Assembly (NCBI GenBank): GCA_019634795.1
Contig: JAHCAR010000005.1
Coordinates: 62,001-126,000 of the forward strand
Source of the DNA: Dokdonella sp.
GTDB taxonomy: Bacteria > Pseudomonadota > Gammaproteobacteria > Xanthomonadales > Rhodanobacteraceae
Direction: 5' to 3'
Length of the DNA: 64,000 nt
Notes under the pieces: generated by a model
What the model saw: the letters and a program-made list of their open reading frames with translations, nothing else
What the model was told of the DNA's origin: nothing
Databases searched by the model: none
Part shown: piece by piece, positions 1-60,363 of the stretch
Position numbering within the stretch: the stretch's first letter is position 1
How the letters are laid out: every line of letters starts with the position of its first letter
Program-made: the position numbers and the translations under genes

Positions 1-491
1 TGCCGCGTCGCCTCGCCGACCTGGCAATAGATCGCCGTACGAAACTGGAAACGCGCGCGCAAGGCGGTTTGCGCGCCCGCGCCGCTGGCCTCGCCGGGAG
101 CCTGCGGTTGCAGCACCTCGTCGAAGATCAGCATCGCGCGGTGTTCACCGGGCGCCAGTTGCACGGCGGGCCGGATCGAAAAACGCACGGCCTGGGAATC
201 ACCCGGCGGGATCGTGAATTCGATCGGATTGACGACGACCCATTGATCGAGGGTCGTGTCCGTGCTCGGGAGGATGCGAATCTGGCCTGCCTCGTCGAAG
301 TCCCAGCTGACCACACTGACCTTGACCTGCTTGGGGTCCTTGGTCAGGTTGAACAGACGATAGGCGTGCGTACCCTGGGCTTCTGCCAGGCCAAGGTCGA
401 AATACTGCGGGCTGAATCCGACCTGGGCCATGGCTGCGCCACTGGCAAGGCAGACTATCAGGCAAAGTACTCGCGAGAATCGGGCGTACAT
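1..491 (-). CDS. Periplasmic fimbrial chaperone, PapD-like (partial, C-terminus outside window)
   Basis: This frame reads 163 codons from an ATG at 491 and runs off the left edge. Residues 1-22 form a signal peptide (hydrophobic LCLIVCLASGAAMA, cleavage after AMA). The mature part starts VGFSPQYFDLG and continues as an immunoglobulin-like beta fold, with YRLFNLT, an IPPGDS turn and a GEHRAMLIFDE strand. These are the layout and strand signatures of the N-terminal domain of chaperone-usher chaperones, which fold and cap pilin subunits in the periplasm. The start abuts the stop of the upstream gene (TGA at 492-494), so the two are probably translationally coupled. An usher and tip adhesin would be expected further left, outside the window. 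The family call is from fold features and operon context, not from close similarity. Confidence 0.75.
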   Translation of the reverse strand, partial: MYARFSRVLCLIVCLASGAAMAQVGFSPQYFDLGLAEAQGTHAYRLFNLTKDPKQVKVSVVSWDFDEAGQIRILPSTDTTLDQWVVVNPIEFTIPPGDSQAVRFSIRPAVQLAPGEHRAMLIFDEVLQPQAPGEASGAGAQTALRARFQFRTAIYCQVGEATR

Positions 492-1073
492 TCAGAATCC
501 TTCGGTGCGGAGTACGAGCCGGCCGGAGTACTGGCCAGCGTGTTGTAGCGTTGCGCTCGGAATCTGCAAGGCGATGCCTCCCTCCAGAACGCGGCTGCCG
601 GATTGTTCCAGGCGCACGCTCACAGGGCGCTCCAGAACGGCAACCGGAATCGATACCTCCTCATGCCCGAGCAGGGACAACCTTCCGGGTTCCCCGCGCA
701 GCGATTCGACGCTCGCCGATACCTGCGCACGGGACGGACTTCCCGCAGGAACCGTCAGTCGCCAGATCCGGACCAGCTCGCGCTGGATGAGCGGATTGAT
801 CGGCTGGGTGGGGAGGGCGTAGCGGGCGCCGAGCTGCGAGGCACCGAATGCCATGGCCGTAGCCTCGGCTGCTCCCGACGTCGTGGCTGTAGCGGGCGCA
901 AGATCATTGAAGCGGATCGGCTCCAGGTGCAGATTGGCCTGCAGCGTTTCCATGACAGCCAAACCCCATTGCTGAGGGGCCTGCGCCGAAGGAATGCCGG
1001 GGACGGCCCTGGGGCTGGCAGAGACGGCCAGGCCCAGGGCGAGGGTCAACGAGAGCGCCGCGGCCATTGACAT
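492..1073 (-). CDS. Secreted fimbria-associated protein of unknown family
   Basis: The predicted protein has 193 residues. Residues 1-20 are a hydrophobic Sec signal (MSMAAALSLTLALGLAVSAS). The mature chain is cysteine-free and ends with a strand pattern, AGQYSGRLVLRTEGF, like the last strands of pilin and DUF4402-like secreted proteins (AGxYxGxLxV). It sits between a pilin-like gene (33 bp upstream) and the chaperone gene directly downstream, so it is probably a minor subunit or assembly partner of the same fimbria. An AGGGG-like ribosome-binding sequence lies about 7 bases before the ATG. No named family can be assigned with confidence. Confidence 0.6.
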   Translation of the reverse strand: MSMAAALSLTLALGLAVSASPRAVPGIPSAQAPQQWGLAVMETLQANLHLEPIRFNDLAPATATTSGAAEATAMAFGASQLGARYALPTQPINPLIQRELVRIWRLTVPAGSPSRAQVSASVESLRGEPGRLSLLGHEEVSIPVAVLERPVSVRLEQSGSRVLEGGIALQIPSATLQHAGQYSGRLVLRTEGF

Positions 1074-1106
1074 GAACAGACCCCTGGTTTGCGGGCTCCG
1101 ACGGCG

Positions 1107-1799
1107 TCAGGTACCGCTGACAGTCAGGACGTAGTTGCTGTCGCCGGTGGCGGACGCGCTGCTCGAGTACAAGCCTGAAGCCGTTGCGTTGGCCATGTTC
1201 AGGGTCAGGGCGACATTGCCCTGCTGCGCATTGACCAGGCCTGGATCGGCAAACGTGACTGCCGTGGTGTTGTTGCCCGAAACGACCGGCGTCGTCGAAA
1301 CGAGCGGTGCGCTGAGGACGATGGTCTGCGGCCCGGTGCCAGCCAGCGACAGAGTGGTGCTGGTTCCGAGCGCAATGCTGACCGTCGTGTTGGCACTGGT
1401 GCCACCGATCGCGCGCACGGCCCAGACGTTCTGCAGGGTCAGCGGGATCAGTGCTGCGCTGAAGCCGCCCGGATTCGCTCCGATCGCGCCATTGGCAGTC
1501 AGACCACTGGCGCCACCCGATGCCGTCAGCGCGCCGGTCGCGCCCAGATCGCAGTTGGCGGCGGAAGTGCTGTAGATCGCACTGACCGTACCGCTTCCAC
1601 AAAGCATTCCAGCCAGGGCCGTGGACGGAACCGTGACGTTCACGGTCGAGAAATAGTAGAGCAGGGTGATCGGGCTGAGGGTGACGTTGAGGTCGACCAC
1701 CGCATTCTGGGCACTTGCGGAATTGGCCCCGAACAGGGCGCCGGCGATGACGAGCGAGGCACCGAAGCGCGTGCCGCGACGGGCAAAGATAGTACGCAT
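1107..1799 (-). CDS. Putative major fimbrial subunit (pilin-like secreted protein)
   Basis: The protein has 230 residues from the ATG at 1799, chosen because the signal peptide MRTIFARRGTRFGASLVIAG followed by ALFGANSASAQ then begins properly; the frame itself opens 23 codons earlier. The mature protein is rich in Ala, Ser, Thr, Gly and Val with few charges. It has exactly two cysteines, in MLCGSG and AANCDLG about 20 residues apart, which could form the disulfide seen in many chaperone-usher pilins. It is the first gene of a minus-strand cluster with a secreted partner and a PapD-like chaperone, which supports a structural subunit exported to the surface. Expression is probably controlled by the leader and terminator upstream (1880-2072). 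Subunit identity is inferred from composition and context. Confidence 0.6.
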   Translation of the reverse strand: MRTIFARRGTRFGASLVIAGALFGANSASAQNAVVDLNVTLSPITLLYYFSTVNVTVPSTALAGMLCGSGTVSAIYSTSAANCDLGATGALTASGGASGLTANGAIGANPGGFSAALIPLTLQNVWAVRAIGGTSANTTVSIALGTSTTLSLAGTGPQTIVLSAPLVSTTPVVSGNNTTAVTFADPGLVNAQQGNVALTLNMANATASGLYSSSASATGDSNYVLTVSGT

Positions 1800-1879
1800 G
1801 ACCTGATTTTCTCTCTGTGTTGACGAAATGGATTGACGTTTCATGCGCCTTTTCGACAAGTCGCGCATTCACGTCGTTG

Positions 1880-1920
1880 AAAAAAACTCCCAAGATTCGG
1901 GCCTCCGGCCGTCATCTTGG
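1880..1920 (-). terminator. Intrinsic terminator in the leader of the pilin operon
   Basis: On the minus strand CCAAGAT and ATCTTGG form a 7-bp outer stem around an inner GGCC/GGCC stem, followed by GAG and seven consecutive T residues. This is a textbook rho-independent terminator. It points toward the pilin gene and lies 81 bases before its ATG with no gene between, so it looks like an attenuator in the operon leader rather than the end of a coding gene. Confidence 0.75.
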
Positions 1921-2055
1921 TCCCCCGTGCAGCGAATCCATCGCCAGACAGTTCTTGAAACCTGCGCCCCCCCGGGCGGGGGCTTCGAAATCCTGTGGCT
2001 GCCCCGACGGGGCTCTTTGCGCCTTCACCCGGATGTCGGGTTTGTATGCAGGCAA
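1921..2055 (-). promoter_or_regulatory. Structured 5' leader of the pilin operon (candidate riboregulator)
   Basis: Reading the minus strand, the leader contains a stem ACCCG/CGGGT (2037-2041 with 2027-2031), a GCCU/AGGC closing helix, the single-stranded word GCGCAAAG (2022-2015), a stem GCCCC/GGGGC (2001-2013), then GCAGCC and a C/G-rich hairpin near 1970-1980. It ends in the intrinsic terminator at 1880-1920. The order CAAACC, hairpin, CGCAAAG, hairpin, CAGCC recalls the c-di-GMP-I (GEMM) class. However, the P2 loop is not a GNRA tetraloop and the junctions are longer than consensus, so I do not assign a class. Confidence 0.45.
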
Positions 2056-2072
2056 TGCCAGATTCATGCCAA
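2056..2072 (-). promoter_or_regulatory. Candidate sigma-54 promoter of the pilin operon
   Basis: The minus strand reads TTGGCATGAATCTGGCA. Compared with the RpoN consensus TGGCACG-N4-TTGCW it keeps the invariant GG and GC at the correct 12-base offset and differs at two positions. Transcription would start near 2045, giving a leader of about 245 bases. RpoN control of pilin genes is common in gammaproteobacteria. I did not identify an enhancer site. Confidence 0.45.
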
Positions 2073-2222
2073 CTGCGTCACACATTCGAGATTCGGCAGC
2101 TCGGCAATGAGAAGTCTGGCACGTATTCCGCGTCGGCAGGGCCGGCTTGTTGCCAATGTTTTAGAATCGTAAGGGCCGCGACGACATCTGCACTGCTCCG
2201 CAGCCGGTCCAATGCCGACCGG

Positions 2223-2263
2223 TTGATCTCCATCAAGGTGCGGAATATTCCGACCGCTAGACT
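2223..2263 (+). promoter_or_regulatory. FNR/ANR-type promoter of the first uspA gene
   Basis: TTGATCTCCATCAA at 2223-2236 is a perfect FNR/ANR half-site pair (TTGAT-N4-ATCAA). A TAGACT -10 element follows at 2258-2263. With a start near 2271 the box centre (2229.5) lies at -41.5, the class II activator position. This indicates induction of the stress gene under oxygen limitation. Confidence 0.75.
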
Positions 2264-2303
2264 GCAAGTGACGGAATCCGCCGTTGTCACGGAATCTGCC
2301 GGC

Positions 2304-2741
2304 ATGTTCAGACACATCCTCATACCCACAGACGGCTCGGAACGCTCCCTCGAAGCCATCGAGAACGGGATCAGGCTGGCCAGCGAGCTTGGCGCCAGGG
2401 TCACCGGCTACCACGCGACCCAGGATTTCGCCGCGATCGCCTATCGCGCCGAAATGCTCGAGGTGACTCGGGAACACTACATGGCCCAGGCAAGACTGCG
2501 TGCCACGACGGCGCTCGACGAAGTGCGCCACCGGGCCAAACTGGCCGGCGTCGAGTGTGACGTCGAATCCACCGCCCATGAGCATCCGCACCGCGGAATC
2601 ATCGAGTCGGCCGAGCGAAACGGCTGCGATCTGATCCTGATGGCCTCGCATGGCCGCAAGGACATCCAGGGGCTGCTGCTCGGCAGCGAAACCCAGAAGG
2701 TGCTGACGCACAGCAAGATTCCGGTGCTCGTTTATCGCTGA
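2304..2741 (+). CDS. Universal stress protein, UspA family
   Basis: This is a single-domain Usp of 145 residues starting MFRHILIPTDGSERS. It has the N-terminal beta strand and the Asp of the nucleotide-binding family, and a C-terminal ATP-binding signature MASHGRKDIQGLLLGSETQKVL, i.e. the G-x2-G-x9-G-S/T type. The start at 2304 is chosen because the family begins at this methionine; the frame is open for about 300 bases upstream but that part is not conserved-looking. It is monocistronic and preceded by an FNR/ANR box at -41.5, so it probably acts during hypoxia or stationary stress. It is a paralogue of the gene at 3657-4094, with the same length and near-identical C-terminus (GSETQKVLTHS). 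Confidence 0.9.
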   Translation: MFRHILIPTDGSERSLEAIENGIRLASELGARVTGYHATQDFAAIAYRAEMLEVTREHYMAQARLRATTALDEVRHRAKLAGVECDVESTAHEHPHRGIIESAERNGCDLILMASHGRKDIQGLLLGSETQKVLTHSKIPVLVYR

Positions 2742-2994
2742 GCGGGTTCGAGTGGCAGCAAGAATTGGCTTTAATATCAGAAGCTTGCGACGCGAAGCGG
2801 CTGCGCCGCTGGGGCGGCAGGAATCCGGTTGCGAAGCATTTCGTCGCCGAAAGTGGGCTGTCCGGGCGCAGATGATACCGTGGCATCGCCATGACCTGGA
2901 CCCCGTGCAGCGCGAAGCCGCATGGGGCGTGCAGGGTGGACCTGACCCGCTTCATTGCTAAACTCGGGCCTGATTCCGCCCAGGAGCGAACGGT

Positions 2995-3423
2995 TTGCCA
3001 AACATTGCCTCAGTTCTGAAAGACGAGATCACGCGCCTTTGCCGCAAGGAAATACGCGCCCAGCTCGAGCCGATCCGGAGTTCCTCGTCCACATATCGCC
3101 GCGATATCGCCGAGCTCAAGCGTCGACTCGCGCAACTGGAACGGGAAAACACCCGGTTGCAGAAGGGAATTGCTTCGAAAAAGGAGGAGCCGACGGACAA
3201 TGGACCGAAGCTGCGCTTCGTGCCCAAGGGCCTCGGTTCGCTGCGCAAGCGCCTGGGCCTCTCGATCGAAGACTTCGCGACTTTGCTCGGCGTAAGTCCG
3301 CAGAGCATCTACAACTGGCAGTCAGGAAAGACCGTGCCGAGACGGGCCCAGCTCGAGAAGCTCGCGGCGGTTCGCTCGATCGGCAAGCGTGAGGCGCGCC
3401 AGATGCTTGAATCGGGCGAGTAG
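2995..3423 (+). CDS. Small coiled-coil/HTH DNA-binding protein
   Basis: The 142-residue protein starts at a TTG with AGGAG eight bases upstream. Residues 30-60 form a charged heptad-like coiled coil (RRDIAELKRRLAQLERENTRL). Residues 80-125 form a helix-turn-helix of the XRE/Cro type: LRKRLGLSIEDFATLLGVS followed by the recognition helix PQSIYNWQSGK. The layout suggests a dimeric repressor or nucleoid-type regulator. It lies between two uspA genes, and a strong hairpin terminator follows at 3441-3466. A TGC-TAAACT extended -10 at 2956-2964 could serve as promoter. The rest of 2742-2994 holds nothing I can identify. The target is unknown; a role in regulating the adjacent stress genes is only a guess from position. 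Confidence 0.75.
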   Translation: MPNIASVLKDEITRLCRKEIRAQLEPIRSSSSTYRRDIAELKRRLAQLERENTRLQKGIASKKEEPTDNGPKLRFVPKGLGSLRKRLGLSIEDFATLLGVSPQSIYNWQSGKTVPRRAQLEKLAAVRSIGKREARQMLESGE

Positions 3424-3440
3424 AAGCGCAGCCGGCGCCT

Positions 3441-3466
3441 GCCGTGCCGTGGTTGCGGCACGGTTT
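3441..3466 (+). terminator. Intrinsic terminator after the HTH gene
   Basis: CCGTGCCG and CGGCACGG form a perfect 8-bp stem with a 6-base loop, followed by TTT, 18 bases after the stop codon. A second hairpin, GCCCGGC/GCCGGGC at 3625-3646, lies just past the stop of the converging uspA gene but has no T-run on that strand. Confidence 0.7.
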
Positions 3467-3656
3467 CATCTACTTGAGTCAATCCGGCGGGGCATTTCAA
3501 ATTTTGCAGGGAATTGGGGCGATTCAAGGCCGCGGCCCGCATACCGTTTGTATGCACAATGCATATTATGTCAAATACGGTTTGAGCCCTGATTCTGCCG
3601 CACGCTCCTCTGCCCGCCGACGCGGCCCGGCTTGGCCGCGCCGGGCGCCCTCAAGA

Positions 3657-4094
3657 TCAGCGAAAGACCAGAACCGGCACCCTGCTATGCGTCAATACCT
3701 TCTGCGTTTCGCTGCCTATCAGCAGGCTTTCGATGCCACCCCGACCGTGCGAGGCCATCGCGATAAGGTCGCAGCCGGCGCCGTCAGTCTCGTCGACAAT
3801 TGCCCGCCAAGGGTGGTTGTGGACCGTTGAACGCACTTCCATCTTCACTCCGGCCTGGGCGGCCAGCTTGCTTGCCTCCGCCAGGGTTCGTTCGACACGC
3901 TCTCTGGCCGCAGACAGATAGGCTTCGCGCGTTATCGCAAGCATCTCCATCTGGTAACCAAGGGCATCGTAATCGGGCATGACGTGCAAACAGGTCAGGC
4001 TCGCGCCGGACTGGCCGGCGAGCTTGATCGCATTCTTCAGCGCCTCGGTGGCGAGCTCGGTTCCGTCAGTTGGCACGAGAATGTGCTTGAACAT
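3657..4094 (-). CDS. Universal stress protein, UspA family (second copy)
   Basis: This 145-residue UspA protein starts MFKHILVPTDGTELA. The ATG at 4094 follows AAGGAGGAGG by a few bases, which fixes the start over an in-frame ATG 11 codons upstream. The ATP-binding motif is MASHGRGGIESLLIGSETQKVL. It shares length, domain plan and the C-terminal GSETQKVLTHS segment with the gene at 2304-2741, so the two probably arose by duplication. An FNR/ANR-like box is centred 41.5 bases before its predicted transcription start. A role in survival under low oxygen or energy stress is expected for ANR-controlled Usp proteins. Confidence 0.9.
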   Translation of the reverse strand: MFKHILVPTDGTELATEALKNAIKLAGQSGASLTCLHVMPDYDALGYQMEMLAITREAYLSAARERVERTLAEASKLAAQAGVKMEVRSTVHNHPWRAIVDETDGAGCDLIAMASHGRGGIESLLIGSETQKVLTHSRVPVLVFR

Positions 4095-4132
4095 GTGGAC
4101 CTCCTCCTTCTCGGCTGGTTGCATCAATGTTC

Positions 4133-4174
4133 AAACTAGCAGGCACGATGCATTGCGCTCTTGATGCAGATCAT
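4133..4174 (-). promoter_or_regulatory. FNR/ANR-type promoter of the second uspA gene
   Basis: The minus strand reads ATGATCTGCATCAA at 4174-4161, one mismatch from TTGAT-N4-ATCAA. A TAGTTT -10 lies at 4138-4133. With a start near 4126 the box centre is at -41.5, the same geometry as at the other uspA promoter. Confidence 0.65.
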
Positions 4175-4243
4175 GCAGAAGCTCGATGATGATTCGACGA
4201 TCCGGCAGACGCCGGACGGCCTTGCCAGGGTTGCCCGGTCCGA

Positions 4244-6154
4244 TCAGCGCAACCAGCGTGTCTCGAATTCGGCCATCGATACCGGTCGGCCGAGATGGAA
4301 GCCCTGCAGATGATCACATTCGCAATCGCTGAGCATCCGCATCTGGGCGGGCGTCTCAATGCCTTCGGCTACCACTTCGAGTGACAGGTTGTGCGCCAGT
4401 TTGATCAGAGTCTCGATGATGGCGCCATAGCGCGGATCGTCGATGGCCCGATTCACGAACATGCGGTCGATCTTGACTGTGGACAGCGGCAGTTGGGCGA
4501 GATGGGTGATCGAGGCATAGCCTGTCCCGAAGTCATCGAGGGACAGTCCAATGCCGGCGGACGCGAGACGGTTGATCACCGACAAATCGCGCTCCTGGTT
4601 GGTCAGCAGGGTGTTTTCCGTAACCTCGACCGAAACGGCATTGGCGGGCAATCCTGCCTGCGCCACTGCTGCGATGAGTAGATCGGGAAAATCGGCACGT
4701 GTGAGCTGGACCGACGAGAGGTTGATGGCTATGACGAAGCCCGGACTCTTGATCGCTCGCCACCTGACTACCTGCTCGAACAGGCCGCCGAGCAAGGGCC
4801 ATTGCATCAGTGCGAGCAGTCCGCTGTCCTCAGCGACCTGAAGAAAATCCACCGGCTCCAGAAGGCCGCGTTGCGGGTGTTGCCAGCGAATCAGGGCTTC
4901 GGCCCCGTGCAGGCGTCCGTCTCGGGAGAAGACCGGTTGCAGGTGAAAGAAGAATTCGGAGGCTTCGATCGCTCGCCGAATGTCCGCTTCGAGCTCCAGC
5001 CGGCGACGAATCGGCTCCTCCATGCCAGACTCGAAGATCTGCACGAAATCGTGCCCTGCCCGCGCTGCCGAGTTTTGCGCGATTTCAGCGTCACGCAGTA
5101 CATCGAGCGCTGACTCGTAGTGACGGATGGACGGCACCAGGCCGATGCTGAAGCGAAGGCGGACATCCTGCCCGTCGATGAGCATGCCGTCCTGCATTTT
5201 CCGGCGCAGATCGGTTGCCCGTTGCACGGCTTCCATGACGCCCCTTTCACCGACCAGCAACAATGCAAACTCGTCGTTGCCCATGCGCCCGGCCAGTTCC
5301 CCGCGGCGGACACCCTGCTCGAGGCGCGCCGCGGTTTCGCGCAGCAGCTGGTCGCCGAATGCCGGGCCGAAGGCCTTGGCAAATTCGCCGAATCCATCGA
5401 CATCGAGGACCAGAAGGGCGGCGTCGCCATCCTTGCGGGCCGACTCGAGGCGTTCCAGGAACAGCGCACGATTGGCCAATCCGGTCAACTGGTCATGGAA
5501 CAGCGCGTGCTGGCGTTCGCGCTCCGACTTGCGCAACAGTTCGAATTCCATGACCTGGGAGCACAGGGCGCCCATCGCCGCGGCGAAGATGCGCTCCGTG
5601 ACGAGCCACTCCCTCGGCGAACCCGTGTGTTCATGGCAAAGGATTCCGATCAGCTCGCCGAACTGGCGCACCGGAACATCGAGCATGGCGCCGATGCCGA
5701 GCGGTTTCAGATAGTCATCCGCGAGCTGGCGGGTGCGCGGATCCAGCTGGGCATCGGCCACTGCCAGGGTGAGCAGACCCTGCAACGACTGGAAGTAGTC
5801 CGGAGCGACTTCGGCGGGCAGGCGCATATCGGGATGGGAAATGCCCTTCCCTTTCTCATGGAGGGCAACGCAGACGATGGCGGTCAGTCCGGGCTCGAAC
5901 AGCCAGAGACTGACGCGATCGACCTCGAGGGCCTCGGCAGCGGTGATCAGCAGGCGCTTGCGCACCGCATCGGCATCGTGAAACGGCGTGCAGGCGAGCG
6001 TGAGCAAGGCGTCGCGCAGTCGTATCCAGTGCGGATCGCTATCCATCGATGCGATATCGGCGCTGGCCTCGACCACGTTTCCCTGTCTCATTGTCTGCTG
6101 TCGTCGGATTTCCCCGGAAACCGAAGTGTACGCCGACATCCTTCGCACCGGCAC
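4244..6154 (-). CDS. GAF-GGDEF-EAL protein, probable c-di-GMP phosphodiesterase
   Basis: The protein has about 636 residues, with the start uncertain between a GTG at 6154 and ATGs at 6139 or 6091. Domains in order are a GAF sensor (about 45-205), a GGDEF domain (about 215-375) and an EAL domain (about 390-630). The GGDEF signature is GNDEF, with Asn in place of the second Gly, so cyclase activity is doubtful. The EAL domain keeps the catalytic set: EALIRW, INLSS, VTENTL, DDFGTGYAS, KIDRMFV and AEGIET. It therefore most likely hydrolyses c-di-GMP, with the GGDEF and GAF parts sensing ligands. No membrane segment or signal peptide is visible, so it is probably cytoplasmic. It stands alone, 33 bp downstream of the SDR gene. 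Confidence 0.85.
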   Translation of the reverse strand: MPVRRMSAYTSVSGEIRRQQTMRQGNVVEASADIASMDSDPHWIRLRDALLTLACTPFHDADAVRKRLLITAAEALEVDRVSLWLFEPGLTAIVCVALHEKGKGISHPDMRLPAEVAPDYFQSLQGLLTLAVADAQLDPRTRQLADDYLKPLGIGAMLDVPVRQFGELIGILCHEHTGSPREWLVTERIFAAAMGALCSQVMEFELLRKSERERQHALFHDQLTGLANRALFLERLESARKDGDAALLVLDVDGFGEFAKAFGPAFGDQLLRETAARLEQGVRRGELAGRMGNDEFALLLVGERGVMEAVQRATDLRRKMQDGMLIDGQDVRLRFSIGLVPSIRHYESALDVLRDAEIAQNSAARAGHDFVQIFESGMEEPIRRRLELEADIRRAIEASEFFFHLQPVFSRDGRLHGAEALIRWQHPQRGLLEPVDFLQVAEDSGLLALMQWPLLGGLFEQVVRWRAIKSPGFVIAINLSSVQLTRADFPDLLIAAVAQAGLPANAVSVEVTENTLLTNQERDLSVINRLASAGIGLSLDDFGTGYASITHLAQLPLSTVKIDRMFVNRAIDDPRYGAIIETLIKLAHNLSLEVVAEGIETPAQMRMLSDCECDHLQGFHLGRPVSMAEFETRWLR

Positions 6155-59932: not shown

Positions 59933-60025
59933 GGAGAGGTGTCCGAGTGGTTGAAGGAGCACGCCTGGAAAGTGTGTAAGCGGCTAAACCCCGCTTCGCG
60001 GGTTCGAATCCCGCTCTCTCCGCCA
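59933..60025 (+). tRNA. tRNA-Ser (GGA anticodon)
   Basis: The gene is 93 nt including an encoded CCA (60023-60025). The acceptor stem is GGAGAGG paired with TCTCTCC, with one G-T pair and discriminator G. The D loop is GAGTGGTTGAAGG, the anticodon GGA at 59967-59969 sits in the loop CTGGAAA, there is a long class II variable arm, and the T arm is GCGGGTTCGAATCCCGC. It reads UCC/UCU codons. Confidence 0.95.
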
Positions 60026-60250: not shown

Positions 60251-60363
60251 GGTGGCTCCGTTGGTGCCTCCGCGACGATAGCTTGTGAACTCCGCCAGGT
60301 CCGGAAGGAAGCAACGGCAGCAAGTGACTCGGGTGCCGGAGTGTCGCTGGCGGAGCTACCACC
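60251..60363 (+). ncRNA. ffs: 4.5S signal recognition particle RNA
   Basis: A 113-nt RNA runs from GGTGGCTCCG to the pairing end GAGCTACCACC. The SRP hallmark is intact: CCAGGTCCGGAAGGAAGCAACGG, with the asymmetric and symmetric loops and the GGAA tetraloop that bind Ffh, followed by GGGTGCCGGAGTGTCGCTGGCGG, which pairs back with CCGCGACG and GCTCCG. It delivers nascent membrane proteins with Ffh and FtsY. No convincing promoter is visible directly upstream, so it may be processed from a longer transcript. Confidence 0.93.

Follow-up and report, generated by a model that had tools for sequence, protein, structure and literature searches.

Dokdonella is placed in the family Rhodanobacteraceae of the order Lysobacterales, in which Xanthomonas may also be placed. 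Two kinds of described system come close to the locus considered here, namely pilin genes under RpoN (sigma-54) control and long leaders or small RNAs bound by CsrA/RsmA. In the sections of the reports cited here, pilA of Geobacter sulfurreducens is described as RpoN-dependent (PMC2725144), RsmA/CsrA is described as acting on 5' UTRs in Xanthomonas, as in hrpG (PMC3937308), and CsrA binding is shown for the virB7 leader of X. citri, in which GGA sites extend up to +238 (PMC7286519). The cited part of a further report describes RsmU, a Xanthomonas sRNA that sequesters RsmA and comes from a 3' UTR (PMC7694677). Published criteria for CsrA targets, as given in the part of the source used here, comprise an A(N)GGA motif close to or overlapping the ribosome site, and at least three sites with pairs within 60 nt (PMC4066749). 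In the open-licence PMC literature, searches for Dokdonella with pilin, riboswitch or small RNA gave no paper whose title points to the present leader.

The leader described here lies in a stretch of 64,000 nucleotides (the window) from a 3.87-Mb draft genome of Dokdonella (G000), and was compared with its counterparts in Dokdonella immobilis (G002) and in the MAG 'Lysobacterales bacterium 63-13' (G007). It is a conserved, structured and RpoN-driven RNA located before the first gene of a probable pilin operon (Table 1).

Table 1. Features of the pilin operon leader and its first genes (window positions)
Feature	Position	Strand	Remarks
Sigma-54 (RpoN) -24/-12 element TTGGCATGAATCTGGCA	2056..2072	minus	11/13 specified letters, GG/GC spacing right
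5' leader part	1954..2045	minus	starts at predicted +1; GCGCAAAG inside at 2022-2015; unconserved
Invariant 35-nt block	1918..1952	minus	identical in all three genomes
Hairpin H1	1925..1951	minus	local; AUGGA (GGA) in loop; mutually exclusive with P1
P1 5' strand (proposed)	1932..1951	minus	shared with H1
Hairpin H2	1890..1920	minus	apical loop contains GGA; in G007 one stem pair differs on both sides
T7 after H2	1880..1886	minus	possible intrinsic terminator, this genome only
Hairpin H3	1843..1868	minus	GUCRRA loop; both-side changes at three pairs among the three genomes
P1 3' strand (proposed)	1815..1837	minus	ends 16 bases before start codon
Probable ribosome binding site CAGG	1802..1805	minus	judged by eye
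Probable pilin	1107..1799	minus	secreted, 230 aa, operon's first gene; ORF and aligned homologues
Operon gene 2	492..1073	minus	193 aa; no family above cut-off

The operon and its setting

Downstream of the pilin gene on the minus strand, the second gene is followed by genes for chaperone-like and usher-like proteins. Neither the pilin, the second gene product nor the chaperone had an above-cut-off match in Pfam or NCBIfam, and thus 'pilin' is only a guess, a reasonable one made from the gene layout and the look of the sequence. No meaningful match to the pilin was found in the PDB, the sole profile matched by the usher-like protein was CarboxypepD_reg, and the combination of pilin, chaperone and usher family profiles that marks a chaperone-usher pilin was not found. 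The predicted structures of the pilin and the chaperone, with mean pLDDT of 29.8 and 39.5, were left unused. The neighbours of the operon include genes for a GAF-GGDEF-EAL protein (4244-6148, minus strand) and two universal stress proteins (2304-2741, plus strand, and 3657-4127, minus strand). The window also carries, both on the plus strand, a small SRP RNA at 60259-60355 and, at 59933-60022, a tRNA gene.

A conserved RpoN promoter and a long leader

An earlier note on this DNA had proposed a near-consensus RpoN site at 2072-2056 and a leader of about 245 bases ahead of the pilin ATG, and both proposals agree with the present results. The pattern TGGCAYGNNNNTKGC has a single match in the 64 kb, which is the RpoN site itself, versus 0.18 expected, and the full consensus with two mismatches likewise has one match, versus 1.82 expected. 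The site is kept in both relatives, where the aligned block 2084-2055 is identical to G000 at 28/30 and 25/30 positions, and the genome encodes RpoN (PF04552, E 2e-66). Judged from its letters and their conservation, the promoter at 2072-2056 on the minus strand is real and has been kept in all three Dokdonella genomes that share the leader. With the sigma-54 start placed 12 bases after the -12 C, +1 is predicted near 2045, which gives a leader of 246 nt up to the ATG at 1799; its counterparts in the relatives measure 247 and 243 nt. The sequence TGTGACGCAG (2084-2073, minus strand), which adjoins the -24 element upstream, is invariant in the three genomes and may be an activator site.

The upstream regions of 19 pilin-homologue loci (L080-L096, L008 and L009) were also scored for RpoN-like sites; 18 of these loci came from a set of 398 genomes across the order and the other from G008. 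A site with at least 9 of the 13 letters was present within 400 bases upstream at 13/13 family loci and at 0/6 loci of other families, and one with at least 10 of the 13 letters at 10/13 family loci; this count omits G009, whose pilin match is weak and partial, and G302 offers just 174 bases of upstream sequence. By comparison, 16.3% of 400-base stretches of the window contain a site with at least 9/13 letters and 0.6% one with at least 10/13, the RpoN site itself being counted in the latter. The occurrence of such sites at a short distance from the family homologues suggests that RpoN has long controlled this family of proteins, which has no name in Pfam. The predicted +1 lies 79-129 bases ahead of the aligned protein start at the other family loci versus 285 and 286 bases in G000 and G007, and the long leader is therefore a feature of the Dokdonella trio.

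Distribution and conservation of the leader

A DNA search with 296 bases against 39 other genomes located the leader in D. immobilis and G007. With a 71-base query at E up to 10, 229 of the 233 family genomes gave matches, of which only those in G000, G002 and G007 had E below 1e-18, the next being 2.1e-4; the weak matches L020 and L022 were rejected by eye as chance matches in coding sequence. Under Infernal's stricter filters, model R1 at E 0.1 gave matches in 23/233 family genomes, of which the 20 outside the trio begin at E 0.0015 and are about as many as expected; at E 0.001 it matched 3/398 genomes across the order. Model R2, run under the same filters, matched 7/233 family genomes at E 0.05, five of them weakly; four of these weak matches, L075, L076, L077 and L079, overlap open reading frames (an AsnC-type gene in the case of L077). 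An exact pattern scan of the genome contigs returned two records. Three members of this leader RNA were thus found, all in one genus.

Conservation within the leader is highly uneven. The region 2054-1954, which contains GCGCAAAG, shows an identity of 0.31-0.47 among the three leaders, while the adjoining segment 1953-1918 is identical at 35-36 of its 36 positions, with 35 bases invariant. As a neutral yardstick, the divergence at fourfold sites was 0.30-0.38 for G002 (four neighbour genes) and 0.49-0.53 for G007 (four operon genes). The conserved domain spans 1952-1815, extending past the part covered by the earlier note, and includes the block, H2, H3 and a possible helix P1. A leader peptide was also considered, as the block reads as a nine-codon ATG-to-stop frame in G000, and was rejected by eye, the stop being absent in G007 and synonymous changes being lacking.

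Structure of the 3' domain

Covariance analysis of the homologous leaders, a check put forward in the earlier note, revealed covariation in three H3 pairs and one H2 pair. All 27 cells of H3 are paired (27/27). H2 is stable in all three leaders (-14.8, -17.6 and -14.6 kcal/mol, G000 first) and retains GGA in its loop though its stem changes; it was counted on alignment A4, since A8 shifts the 3' arm of H2 in G000 by one column. The three genomes thus share the promoter, the invariant block and a covarying H3. Of the folded leader described in the earlier note, the conserved structured 3' domain stands, but 2060-1878 does not fold more stably than shuffled sequence (z -0.82, 40/200 as good), and the stability of the whole leader (z -0.82 to -1.71) was set aside as evidence.

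The evidence for P1 is mixed. This helix was proposed by RNAalifold from the three leaders, pairing 1951-1932 with 1837-1815, and 53 of its 54 cells are paired, with one broken; four one-sided changes keep the pairing and no both-side change was observed. At the alignment level, the duplex reaches -20.1 versus -9.6 +/- 2.4 for column shuffles (1/1000 as good) and -11.3 +/- 2.7 for shuffles separating invariant from variable columns (4/1000 as good). Taken one sequence at a time, the duplex between the block and the region downstream does not surpass shuffles, 266, 317 and 179 of 1000 being equally good. Folded alone, the 3' domain forms 15, 16 and 8 of the 18 P1 pairs and none of the H1 pairs, and these free folds lie below H1-forced folds by 3.3, 7.9 and 1.7 kcal/mol; in the best folds of the longer leader the counts are 15, 0 and 0 of the 18 P1 pairs, so that P1 is confined to G000, and G007 forms half of H1. 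Summed pairing probabilities of the block, local versus downstream, are 0.16/0.34, 0.10/0.50 and 0.54/0.09, and in G000 forcing all possible P1 pairs yields -45.4, worse than the -47.9 with H1 forced. In pair-count controls, 20/500 shuffles reach the observed values for P1 and H3, where the both-side changes are all in H3, and 172/500 do so for H1 and H2. Taken together, P1 is partly supported. The P1 and H1 conformations are close in energy, which suits a switch without proving one, and the strand shared by P1 and H1 is invariant with the 3' strand of P1 variable, a pattern that two pairing partners would be expected to produce.

A two-state leader as the preferred reading

The reading we prefer, tentatively and with a probability of about 0.42, is that the RNA of 1952-1815 switches translation of the pilin in cis through the alternative of H1 and P1, with CsrA as the most likely effector. 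The RpoN promoter would produce the 246-nt leader, in whose 3' domain the strand 1951-1932 could pair in two mutually exclusive ways, either as H1, exposing AUGGA in its loop, or as P1, enclosing H2 and H3. P1 would hamper ribosome loading and H1 would free it, and the balance would be set by a factor binding H1 and H2, most likely CsrA/RsmA at the GGA loops. The switch, its direction and the CsrA step are all inferred, and the mechanism is most likely translational.

A role of CsrA is plausible by analogy with the Xanthomonas leaders and from the GGA loops, and CsrA is encoded in the genome. GGA shows no enrichment, with 5 occurrences in 166 nt versus 4.1 expected, and the CsrA-type sites of G000 are A(N)GGA at -195 and -142, with secondary AGAGA at -17 and -15. 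By the published criteria, as far as the cited part of the source states them, G000 lacks an A(N)GGA close to its start codon; G007, which has five A(N)GGA, is the only one with such a motif near the ribosome site, AGGA at -6 (PMC4066749).

Other readings of the leader

The earlier note had emphasized a strong terminator with seven T residues and attenuation through it. In this genome, H2 is indeed followed after three bases by the T run, which is the only run of at least seven T or A in the window, and no same-strand gene lies upstream of the leader, so that termination regulated through an antiterminator could be envisaged. However, the U run is absent from the leaders of G002 and G007, and a terminator scan found no terminator-like site after H2 in either, which weakens attenuation as a conserved function; the three-base spacer ahead of the T run also speaks against it, as do the variable 5' part and the failure to see a conserved antiterminator. 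The same scan gave 3 sites in window positions 1-4500 versus 4.2 expected. Termination could be specific to this species, and attenuation is quite unlikely to explain the leader. For a divergent c-di-GMP-I (GEMM-I) riboswitch, also raised in the earlier note, the word GCGCAAAG, which resembles that family, is present in the leader and a GAF-GGDEF-EAL gene lies nearby. Nevertheless, the word falls in the unconserved part and is not kept in the relatives, RF01051 has no match in the genome (control genomes were silent too), and a search of the three leaders against Rfam at E up to 10 gave no riboswitch match, only one unrelated family each (HTT-AS1_3, v-snoRNA-1 and the DnaX element, all far below their cut-offs). 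With the first 90 nt or so unconserved, T7 present only here and Rfam without a riboswitch match, neither a c-di-GMP-I riboswitch nor a conserved attenuator is supported, and the c-di-GMP-I reading is hardly credible. An undescribed class of small-molecule riboswitch, closed by P1 and binding its ligand at the invariant CGCUGCACGGGGGA, would account for an invariant stretch left unpaired in the P1 fold, for enclosed hairpins with conserved loops and for the location ahead of the ribosome site. The conserved domain matches no Rfam family, as the new class suggested in the earlier note would have it; against such a class, this lack of a match comes with three members in one genus, P1 is itself uncertain, and no ligand is indicated, since there is one target gene. 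We consider this improbable, and a similarly low probability goes to conservation of the block at the DNA level, as in a downstream protein site, with the RNA folds incidental. The invariance of the block, which leaves it without covariation of its own, and the unexceptional thermodynamic folding are in keeping with a DNA site, but H3 and one H2 pair covary.

The two-state leader acting in cis has its own difficulty in D. immobilis, where the pilin is broken yet the leader is kept, and a purely cis role therefore fits poorly. There, within the decayed operon and its kept promoter and leader (L046:12090-12700), the pilin consists of two remnants, 81% (together with the leader) and 79% identical, which have lost the start and the frame and are separated by an insertion of about 290 bp; no recognisable gene follows on the same strand, the next one lying on the other strand. 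Among positions at which G000 and G007 carry the same base, G002 was changed at 1/25 sites in the promoter, 1/36 in the block (at its edge), 1/21 in H2 (with an imperfect alignment) and 11/54 in the downstream leader, and at 3/47 and 13/53 sites in the two pilin remnants. The promoter and block together (2/61) differ from the remnants (16/100; one-sided Fisher 0.009) and from the remnants plus downstream leader (27/154; one-sided Fisher 0.003), a contrast suggestive of selection on the promoter and block after gene loss. They show no difference from the first remnant alone (3/47; p 0.38), and so the gene loss may be recent. The low count of changes is what would be expected if the promoter and block formed the gene of a trans-acting RNA, such as a CsrA sponge or a base-pairing sRNA, located only incidentally before the pilin and ending here, after about 166 nt, at H2 and T7. 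That reading is also served by the presence of H2 and T7 in G000, but it must contend with the possibly recent loss, with two relatives that lack any terminator-like site beyond H2, and with an RNA found nowhere except next to the operon or what is left of it; we hold it to be unlikely. A combined history, in which the RpoN-driven two-state RNA (block, H2, H3 and P1) arose in the Dokdonella pilin leader, continues to govern translation of the pilin in two species and, in D. immobilis, outlived its operon as an RNA acting in trans, is likewise unlikely.

Implications and comparison with known systems

If the two-state leader is the correct reading, the locus would show, in compact and testable form, how an RNA switch confined to one lineage was added to a surface-protein operon under RpoN control, in contrast to the short leaders of family relatives with an RpoN-like site. 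The leader would then be a possible switch on the making of a probable surface-fibre protein, and it matches no known riboswitch. If the D. immobilis case holds, it would represent a leader becoming an independent RNA once its operon died.

Among known systems, c-di-GMP-I (GEMM-I, RF01051) riboswitches are likewise leader RNAs, of which the word GCGCAAAG is reminiscent, but the Dokdonella leader has no Rfam match and does not conserve the word. With pilA of G. sulfurreducens, as described in the part of the report cited, the locus shares an RpoN promoter ahead of a pilin gene; pilA encodes a type IV pilin, whereas the Dokdonella protein is a pilin candidate outside known families, preceded by a long structured leader (PMC2725144). 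On the trans-acting reading, the leader would resemble RsmU, in the cited account of it, as a genus-limited and mRNA-derived RNA with predicted GGA motifs, but RsmU comes from a 3' UTR, while the Dokdonella RNA is a 5' leader with an RpoN promoter and putative binding only (PMC7694677). For the virB7 and hrpG leaders of Xanthomonas, the cited sections report demonstrated CsrA binding, whereas for the Dokdonella leader such binding is putative; what these loci would have in common is a long 5' UTR with several GGA motifs ahead of an operon for a surface machine, in a cell in which CsrA is present (PMC7286519, PMC3937308).
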